Source of the DNA: Apostichopus japonicus
Lineage: Eukaryota; Echinodermata; Holothuroidea; Aspidochirotida; Stichopodidae
Direction: 5' to 3'
Length of the DNA stretch: 64,000 nt
NCBI RefSeq assembly: GCF_037975245.1
Contig: NC_092576.1
Span: 40,614,111-40,678,110 of the forward strand
The notes under the pieces were generated by a model. It was not told where the DNA came from and ran no database searches. It worked only from the letters and a program-made list of their open reading frames with translations. Both the position numbers and the translations under genes were made by a program. This document shows positions 12,301 to 15,300 of the stretch, in pieces (within the stretch, counting starts at the first letter, position 1; the number at the start of each line of letters is the position of its first letter).

Positions 12301-15300
12301 AGATGACATCTCTACACTGTTTTACAAATTTTGTTTATTGTCAACTGGTGTTAAATGTCATCTTAATGTGGTACTTTGCAAATATGAAGAGGGAATGTTT
12401 TTTGTTGAGTTATTAGAAATTATAAACCAATAGATGAATATTAACATTTAGGAGTGAGGAGGTGACGTCATCTCCAAGTTAGTCTTAAAGGAGCACCAAA
12501 GATTAAACATACTTGACGCAGTATATTGAATTTTTTGCAGAAACCATTTACTAGAATTTTGTTTCTTCATTAGTCCTGCGTACATAGATCAAACAGCGGA
12601 TGTTAAGGCAGCTGGTAGGAGAATAACGTGGGGAAAGTTCATGAACGCAGGACAGACCTGTATTGCTCCAGATTACATCCTATGTGACGCCAATTTGAAA
12701 GACAAACTCGTATCAGAGATCAAAAACAACCTGAGAAGTTTCTATGGCGACGACATCAAGGCATCACCTGACTACGGAAGAATCGTTAACGAAAGACACT
12801 TTGAGTATGTAATGACGTCATAATATTGATGATAAGAATTATGTAAAAAAAAAAAAATTATTTGTGAAGAATGATATTTTTTAATAGTTTAAACTTTTCA
12901 GTTGTAAAACTAAATGTAGAATATTCATATGTACATTTCAAGTTTGTGATGAAGCTTCTAAGGGAACATGGCAAACCAAGTAGGCTCAATTAACAGATGC
13001 CCCGATGGTATCGTTGGAGCCCCTGCCACTTGTTGTAATGCCCTTAAAACATCATCCATTACTGATGACAACATCTGTCGTGCCCCTTTAACCAACTTAC
13101 CATTTTAAACAAGTTACCTTACTGTGTGTCCTCATCACTGTCTCGATCGTGAAATTTCATTGTCATTTTATTGTTGAAATATTTCATGATACGGTACGAT
13201 TCTTCTACAGATGTATCATACATTTCGATATGAATCGTGTATTCGTCATGTTACGCGCACTGGTTATATATATACGCTATTATGTTACATATGTGTTATT
13301 TTTACTTAAAGGTATGCTGTACTGGCCCCAAATATGCTAGATATTCAAATATGGTCACCTTTGGTCAAAGTTCTTGAATTCTTCCTGTTACAACCTTCGA
13401 GGTAATGTTCCTCACTGGGACATTCAGTCATCTAGTGTTCCTTACAAATGTCTGAGAACAATTTGGAGAGTAAAGACCTCCAGAAAAGTATTTTTGAAAA
13501 CTTCTAGCAATTATAGCGTGCTATAAATTTGGGGCCTATACTGACTATACCATTAACCATTGATTCAGATCCGTGTGTGCTTGTATAGGATATCTGACCA
13601 GAATCTACATACTATCCCCAATCAACGTGTACACAGTTCGATATAGTTATACAGTATATCTTATTACCGTATATGTAAAACTATAACAGTATATTTTTCA
13701 GAAAATGCAGAAACGTTGTAAAAATAATATACTTTCGTTATATTAAATTTCAGTCGTATTCAAGGTATGCTAAAGCAGTGTGAAAAGAAGGTGGTGTTCG
13801 GTGGCAGCTCTGACCGGAGTCAGCGGTATATTGAACCGACACTCATCGATAACGTTTCCTTTGACGACGCCGTCATGGGTGAAGAGGTGAGTGACGTCAC
13901 TTGCTTCTGTACAAAAACAATAGGTTGCGCTGTAATCCAAATATGTAAAACAAAGAAAATATGTCAAGATATCAACCATGAACAATTCTAAAACGAAATG
14001 TGGAAAATAAATAAATTTTGTCATTCAGTTTCAAAGTTACGTTTAAATAATAATATTTTACATACCCTACCAATGTTAATCTAATGTTAATCAATGTTTA
14101 TATAAGTCGGTGTTAGGGAAGTTGTGTAACACTGAAACGACCAAAATAGCATCCCTTTTCCTTCAAGGAAAGCGAGAAGTAATTTCTATTTCCATTAAGT
14201 TATCATGATATCACATTGTACTGGTATTGCCTACTCATCTTTTACATTCGGACTACGAATTTGCTACTAGAAGTCAATACATTTATTATTCACACATTCT
14301 GTTTAAAAACTGAATGATCAATGCAGCAATGTGATTGGTAAAATCCACAGATCTTTGGGCCCTTGCTACCGATTTTTACCGTGAGGAGCGCAGACGAGGC
14401 GATTCGAATCATTAACTCCAGGTAACGTTTGTACTTGCATTTTTATGTATATTTTATACTTAAACATCCGGTTATGTGTATGAACATCATTCTGAATATT
14501 TCTCCCAACGTTCACGCAAAATATAGGCAATATTGGTGGGCTTCGTGTAACAGTCCCTCACACATAAGAAACTGAATTGAAATCAGTTCCCTATACCTCC
14601 ATTTGAAACTAATAAGTTGTACACCCCTCGATCACACCTTTCCTCTCCCCCTTCTCCCCCTTGAAAGATGTATGGCAGATGCTTTTTATGAAAAAGTCGC
14701 CCAGGAAGTACCTGGTCACGAAAACCAAACTACCGAACGACTGATCCGCTCTTAACCCCAGTCAAGTGGGTGGGTTGAAGTGTGCTATATTGCACCAAAT
14801 TGCATCTGAGGCCACCTGGAAATGCAAAAAAATTCCCCCAGGCCGGCCATCAGTCTTCAGCCCCCCCCCCCCCACTCAAAAGTACCTTCCTACGCCACTG
14901 ACCCCAGTCCCCTTGAATCGGGACTGTGACAGTGTGATCATCTTTGGGTGTGCATCACCATTCCCCTCGAAAGGCAACAGATACTACACATGATCTTAGC
15001 CAAAAGGCCGAGAAGCGATGTTTGGCAGATACACATTATTCATATATAACTATGCCTCAAAGCCCCTCCTTCTGTCCTATAATTTCCATACTTACCTATA
15101 CTACTGCATACTCTTTTCATCCACAGGGAAAAGCCATTGGCACTGTACGTATTCTCAAATGATAAGAAAATTAACAAACGGTTCCTGGCTGAGACCTCTA
15201 GCGGGAATATCACGGTTAACGAGACGCTGGTTCACGCATTGGGTAAGATCTTCATAAGTACCTGCAGTTAGTCTGATTCAGCCTGTAAAGGACTATTCAT

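Follow-up and report, generated by a model that had tools for sequence, protein, structure and literature searches.

A SINE that begins with the 5' end of U2 snRNA raises the question of its promoter, as the promoters of snRNA genes are external to the transcript and retrocopies headed by snRNA should hence be silent. This puzzle is posed by a stretch of 64,000 nucleotides from Apostichopus japonicus (NC_092576.1, positions 40,614,111 to 40,678,110; hereafter the window), where such an element occurs in several copies. Crocodilian SINEs with heads derived from U1 or U2, named SINEU, were reportedly described by Kojima in 2015 (Genome Biol Evol 7:1702). SINEU is a recognised SINE class in Repbase (PMC5753468), and SINEs with U1 or U2 heads are likewise recognised elsewhere (PMC8010984). 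In the present family, copies that lie within the U2 genes themselves offer an answer to the promoter question. We propose, with a probability of about 0.72, that the family is a non-autonomous retroposon that targets U2 genes, that the U2 promoter drives the transcription of its source copies and that the dispersed copies are retrocopies of the resulting chimeric RNA.

The sequence-only reading of the window had proposed four copies of the element, and all of them exist with the boundaries listed in Table 1. Its claim of a U2-like start of 44 bases in copy C proved exact, being 44/44 to the host U2 from base 1. The extent that it gave for this copy stood in part: the element is present, but its end lies at 14682 and not at 14683, and the foreign segment within it comprises 138 bp (14763-14900). 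Copy C is a complete element of the minus strand, with U2 nt 1-44 followed by a body, about 148 nt long and with AAAAAG at its end, a hairpin and an A-rich tail, and the 16-bp target duplication that surrounds it is imperfect, with two mismatches between its copies. The Rfam U2 model matches 15019-14943 (minus strand) with 51.9 bits, the gathering score being 46. Copy C also shares a letter specific to the U2 of this host, whose genes read AAGATCATGTGTAG where human U2 reads AAGATCAAGTGTAG. The insert in copy C, from its 8-bp duplication and its CAGTGGCG end, we take to be probably a small non-autonomous element of hAT type. Copy C is not alone in having the head, as U2 sequence is found in copies A, B and D too (from nt 12, 18 and 2). 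Elsewhere in the window, at 2476-2780 on the plus strand, a tRNA-like match of 34.2 bits is followed by sequence resembling a tRNA-headed SINE with an ATT-repeat tail.

Table 1. Copies of the U2-headed SINE in the window and their parts
Feature	Position in window	Strand	Description
SINE copy C	14682-15019	-	U2 head, body and A-rich tail; split by a later insertion at 14763-14900
Head of copy C	14976-15019	-	U2 snRNA nt 1-44; 44/44 against the host U2 gene
5' target duplication of copy C	15017-15032	-	GTATCTGCCAAACATC; final 3 bases common with U2 nt 1-3
3' target duplication of copy C	14667-14682	-	GCATCTGCCATACATC; initial base doubles as the final base of the tail
Segment inserted in copy C	14763-14900		138 bp; 8-bp duplication ACTGGGGT at 14901-14908 and 14755-14762
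SINE copy A	4607-4772	+	5'-truncated; U2 from nt 12, then body
SINE copy B	4811-4977	-	5'-truncated; U2 from nt 18, then body; tail facing that of copy A
SINE copy D	57652-57832	+	Decayed; U2 from nt 2 (82% identity over 44 nt), then body

The genome searched comprises 671,581,487 bases in 35 contigs, contig 16 (C16) being of 46.04 Mb. A query of 176 bases gave 2,546 first-look candidates, from which 40 were scored and 30 were cut out for alignment. The consensus of these 30 copies measures about 192 nt up to the end of AAAAAG and consists of ATCGCTTCTCGGCCTTTTGGCTAAGATCATGTGTAGTATCTGTT (U2 nt 1-44), a linker that is mostly CCCTTTCGAG, and the body, with the hairpin CCCAGGTTCTTTCCTGGG before the A-rich tail. 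The family is thus short, dispersed, of high copy number and devoid of a long ORF, as SINEs are, and has the U2-derived 5' head (44/44 to host U2 nt 1-44) that characterises SINEU. Within nt 31-100 of the consensus, the body stretch GATACACACC...TGATC is partly complementary to GATCATGTGTAGTATC of the U2 head, and in the predicted fold the branch-point-pairing stretch of the head would be paired.

As the 176-base query included part of the head, the presence of the head was assessed again with copies chosen by the body only. From 40 places selected in this way, U2 sequence was found in 26 of the 28 copies examined (18/20 newly examined plus 8/8 from the earlier set), and the remaining two are truncated within the body. 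Two patterns of 35 bases were counted genome-wide with a tolerance of 3 mismatches: that of the head (U2 nt 19-44 plus the junction) occurs 1,188 times and that of the body 1,213 times, and the reversed-pattern controls have no match; the two patterns span different columns, and their near-equal counts are an indication and not an exact fraction. These counts lead us to conclude that the U2 head belongs to the SINE family. The sequence-only reading of the copies as a dispersed family, SINE-like and headed by the 5' end of U2, is therefore supported, the outcome that would have spoken against it, namely a majority of bodies devoid of the head, being the opposite of what was found. Neither are the copies longer U2 pseudogenes, since the dispersed heads stop at nt 44/45, or in a few cases at about nt 50-52, and U2 nt 45-192 are absent from the dispersed U2-headed copies. 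Chance U2 pseudogenes situated beside an unrelated repeat would fit a single Rfam match in the window, taken by itself; the head and body counts and the body-chosen copies refute this explanation, to which we give practically no credence.

The 5' ends were measured in 101 aligned units from 77 loci plus the window, with copy C represented by two pieces and locus L018 containing a duplicated stretch. More than half of them (59/101) begin at U2 nt 1-6, including 18 at nt 1, and only six begin past nt 45. The 24 bases upstream of the 33 copies that start at nt 1-3 have a mean of 8.1 matches to the U2 5' flank, near the 7.5 of random sequence. Starts at the first U2 bases, a point that the earlier reading had proposed to check, together with a chance-level similarity upstream, place the 5' boundary at the U2 transcription start, as would be expected for a retrocopied RNA. 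Target duplications, also among the proposed checks, accompany many copies besides copy C: 22 of 50 reached a score of at least 7, a value attained by 0.7% of 1,941 mismatched pairs (the 50 exclude duplicates as well as copies truncated at 3' or beginning past nt 45), and exact duplications of at least 8 bp were found in 31 of 83. In 19 of the 50 copies, most of them older, no duplication was detectable. Target-site duplications and 5' truncation are again features of SINEs.

The letters between the A-run and the duplication in the 31 copies with exact duplications were G in 11, GT in 9, GTAT in 2, none in 1 and other in 8. Where at least two such letters were present (19 copies), 11 continue the (A)GTAT of U2 and 8 do not, and a read-through of SINE RNA into U2 is suggested by the former. 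Some copies have moved by other means. Seven loci (L026, L055, L060, L066, L070, L071 and L072) share a 5' flank (GAAGAGTTGAAGACATCCCCG) and a head cut at U2 nt 23, from which we conclude that this SINE copy is carried along inside another dispersed repeat. Also, at C5:11042398-11066037 eight SINE copies of the same strand are spaced about 3-4 kb apart, as would result from the tandem amplification of a larger unit with the SINE in it.

A possible explanation for such a family may be an ordinary, self-sufficient SINE, which captured its U2 head once (by template switching, for example), is transcribed from an internal promoter and merely landed in U2 genes. In this sense, the commonest linker is almost constant in the dispersed copies, as if derived from one founder, and is shared by subfamilies, and the head contains an A-box-like stretch, TGGCTAAGATC, with 10 of 11 positions. 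Nevertheless, the scan of the consensus gave no B-box, the best site having 7/11, and an internal Pol III promoter is not recognised there. The same A-box-like stretch is part of U2 itself, and U2 is a Pol II gene. Runs of T (CCTTTTGG, GGTTTTCG) lie inside the element. A single capture is also at odds with heads joined at two different positions of U2, because besides the main junction at nt 44/45 there is a second class of four places where the body is joined at about nt 50-52, the head length that would be expected if U2 were cut as in the duplications within U2 genes described below. We consider the self-sufficient SINE unlikely.

The host U2 genes, with 46 candidates scored and all of them over the Rfam cut-off, form an array of tandem 645-bp units on the minus strand of contig 16, of which we read 160 kb (C16:31006001-31166000, loci L039-L054). 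In this stretch, 53 U2 units could be matched over more than 180 nt; of the interrupted units, both ends are visible in 25, and a further one has its 5' part beyond the limit of the stretch. SINE units alone interrupt five of the 25 paired genes, one of these by two units, and another of the 25 holds a LINE followed by a truncated SINE, which gives seven SINE units in six U2 genes, a location that the sequence-only reading had not noticed. Behind the tail of each resident SINE, U2 resumes at nt 35. Two resident bodies are truncated at 5' and flanked on both sides by U2 nt 35-53 (AGTATCTGTTCTTTTCAGC), that is, by a target duplication of 19 bp, which argues that these two copies arose by insertion and not by exchange.

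The alternative that the SINE reached the U2 genes through recombination or gene conversion with dispersed heads, instead of targeted retrotransposition, draws on the homology of these heads to U2 and on the clear homogenisation of the array (the 53 units matched over more than 180 nt). Neither the 19-bp U2 duplications around bodies truncated at 5' nor the 3' junction at nt 35, common to LINEs in the same genes, would result from an exchange through the head. Such an origin is refuted for the two truncated insertions and seems to us very improbable for the resident copies as a whole.

The tail continued by U2 nt 35-58, used as a pattern, has seven matches in the genome, six at array sites and one on contig 20. 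In the latter (L103, C20:14906100-14906800), a SINE with an older linker has U2 nt 35-192 behind it and a fragment of U2 nt 9-28 repeated upstream, and the locus looks like a decayed U2 gene. In the array, five U2 genes that bear a SINE have 99.3-100% identity to an intact unit over the 300 bp upstream, and behind the SINE their U2 part is identical to that of the unit. On the strength of this upstream identity, the U2 promoter is present, as far as sequence goes, at the SINE-bearing U2 genes.

LINEs or pieces of LINEs, of 520-7,862 bp, account for the remaining 20 of the 25 paired interruptions. LINE families with an open ORF2, of 1141-1162 aa and 36-53% mutual identity, number at least four in the array (a, b, d, e), and several families are represented by many near-identical copies. 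Several families of about 5 kb use the same U2 nt 35 junction as the SINE, the 3' junctions of the LINEs being at U2 nt 35 in families a, d, e and f and at nt 38 in b and c. The ORF2 of family d, the family that was scanned, encodes an APE-type endonuclease (PF03372), a reverse transcriptase (PF00078, RVT_1) and a zf-RVT domain, while its ORF1 gave weak zinc-knuckle matches. Insertion in U2 genes combined with an APE-type endonuclease and a reverse transcriptase is a feature of elements of the Keno type. In PMC4640811, the name Keno is given to U2-targeting LINEs whose endonuclease is AP-like and the name Utopia to those in which it is restriction-like. By this naming, and judged from the domains of family d, the LINEs of the array look Keno-like.

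A partner LINE that shares the tail of the SINE was sought and none was found, either among the array LINEs or by a genome-wide tail pattern. The SINE body has no similarity to the rest of the 160-kb array, LINEs included (best E 0.75), and the tail pattern with two changed upstream bases occurs at no place in the genome, a pattern that misses LINEs sharing either base or with a diverged tail. The junction pattern of LINE family d has five matches, all of them within C16:30.97-31.08 Mb, and dispersed U2-headed copies of this family are absent from among them. Family d being confined to the U2 region and the SINE being spread genome-wide, the off-target spread is special to the SINE, unlike LINE d.

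We found the linker variants of the resident copies at 123 places in the genome. Of 13 dispersed copies chosen by linker type, L099, L100 and L101 are identical to the resident copy R33492 over 189-191 nt, and the other ten have 98.8-99.5% identity to it. An independent joining of U2 and body in each resident copy was considered and rejected, since the recurrence of the same linkers at 123 places identifies them as marks inherited within subfamilies; as distinct joins there remain only the classes at nt 44/45 and at nt 50-52. The commonest linker of the dispersed copies (CCCTTTCGAGGGG) is absent from the array copies read and occurs only in the relic on contig 20, so the array copies do not reveal where the older subfamilies came from. 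Among the 100 of the 123 places that were listed, many copies with young linkers are crowded in C17:18.2-24.6 Mb.

The sites where the dispersed copies landed keep a trace of U2. After 14 of 84 3' junctions were dropped (hitchhiking copies, copies adjoining another SINE and duplicates), 70 distinct ones remained, in which the U2 bases T, A, T, C and T at +1 to +5 are present in 63, 61, 42, 28 and 34, respectively. Over +3 to +10, the junctions have a mean of 3.06 U2 matches against 2.18 (sd 0.13) at control offsets, with no significant U2 preference at +6, +7, +8, +9, +11 and +12. The dispersed 3' junctions thus resemble the U2 target TATCT. The T at +1 and the A at +2 may be derived in part from the RNA, so they do not reflect a preference of the endonuclease alone.

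The tail followed by U2 nt 35-45 occurs at 19 places in the genome, of which seven are in the array, one is on contig 20 and eleven are dispersed, and by a rough estimate the random expectation for the latter would be far below 1. A second unit or body follows in the five dispersed places read, L085, L086, L088 and L094 among them. In L085 and L086 two units are joined by U2 nt 35-45, those of L086 within one 15-bp duplication. These dimers may come from SINE insertion into the U2 head of another SINE or from an origin in U2 genes, and both routes need U2-specific insertion. Taking L085 and L086 as proof of a U2 source was rejected, because a second insertion into a dispersed head, as suggested by the mixed dimer L094, fits equally well. 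What the dimers show is that insertion took place at U2 sequence; the source need not have been a U2 gene.

We therefore return to the U2-targeting retroposon as our preferred reading. A retroposon of about 192 nt, in which U2 nt 1-44 precede a short linker of variable sequence, an unrelated body and, at the 3' end, the hairpin and the A-rich tail, would insert into U2 genes by target-primed reverse transcription at U2 nt 35-53, the site common to the U2-specific LINEs. Each insertion would leave the SINE body downstream of the U2 promoter and of U2 nt 1-44, and the external Pol II promoter would make a chimeric RNA from U2 +1. The machinery of the U2-specific Keno-like LINEs would reverse-transcribe this RNA back into a U2 gene or, alternatively, off target, at sites resembling the U2 target, and the off-target copies would retain the U2 head and lose the external promoter. 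The dispersed copies may serve as occasional landing sites, as their head contains the target (nt 35-44).

Some observations weigh against parts of this mechanism. A transcript from the U2 promoter should reach the U2 3' end, yet the dispersed copies are without U2 nt 45-192, and given this absence an internal priming at the tail must be assumed. The lack of a tail-matching LINE in our searches, the confinement of LINE d while the SINE is genome-wide and the absence of the commonest linker from the array copies also count against it. In a stronger version, to which we would give somewhat under even odds, the U2 genes would be an obligate launch pad: a promoterless SINE would make a U2 gene chimeric and be re-headed at every landing, the U2 behind it (AGUAUCUG) would be the primer-binding stretch, the off-target sites would be U2-like for that reason, and the dispersed heads would be further targets.

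The family resembles SINEU as a SINE with a snRNA-derived 5' head, here with more than one U2 junction. SINEU-1 is said to have undergone recurrent head addition. The present family differs from SINEU in its invertebrate host, its copies inside U2 genes and its U2-like off-target sites, and the likeness between the two is drawn from the head. Another parallel is given by the short internally deleted elements (SIDEs) of R2 in 28S genes, which are non-autonomous and transcribed with a multicopy host RNA gene. The proposed SINE would also be non-autonomous in a multicopy RNA gene and transcribed with it; unlike the R2 SIDEs, its target is U2, it does not derive by deletion from any LINE of the 160-kb stretch, and it is widely spread off target.

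Keno is described as a U2-gene-targeting LINE of the Tx1 clade (PMC4640811), and the array LINEs share its target gene, family d having an APE-type endonuclease together with the reverse transcriptase. Keno, compared here by its description, is an autonomous LINE, whereas the SINE has neither an ORF nor a tail in common with the array LINEs. Utopia, described there as a U2-targeting LINE with a restriction-like endonuclease whose 3' flanking U2 sequence is common with Keno (PMC4640811), has the same target gene too, but LINE d has the APE-type PF03372 domain and not a restriction-like one. Among the papers that our literature searches listed, none has a title or the beginning of an abstract that describes a SINE inside U2 genes, and Kojima (2015) may discuss the link. 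SINEU heads and U2-targeting LINEs are known; what would be new is their combination and a SINE within U2 genes.

The finding may also matter for genome annotation. Eight SINE heads in seven of 20 dispersed loci exceed the Rfam U2 cut-off, and for this reason genomes with such SINEs will carry an excess of annotated U2 genes. The published annotation of Apostichopus japonicus gives 159,644 bp of SINEs (0.02% of the genome) and 1,088 snRNAs (PMC10344927). Judging by these figures of PMC10344927, the 1,213 body matches of about 190 bp, which amount to about 0.23 Mb, would be largely unannotated or filed as unknown, and the 1,088 snRNAs may include SINE heads, as the eight heads pass the cut-off. 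SINEs in promoter-bearing U2 genes, beside U2-specific LINEs, suggest a testable solution to the puzzle of the silent retrocopy, that is, parasitic transcription by the U2 gene, and provide a natural system for the study of a retroposon that is both target-specific and widely dispersed. Furthermore, if U2 genes are indeed an obligate launch pad, snRNA-headed SINEs in general would be by-products of retroposons that target snRNA genes.
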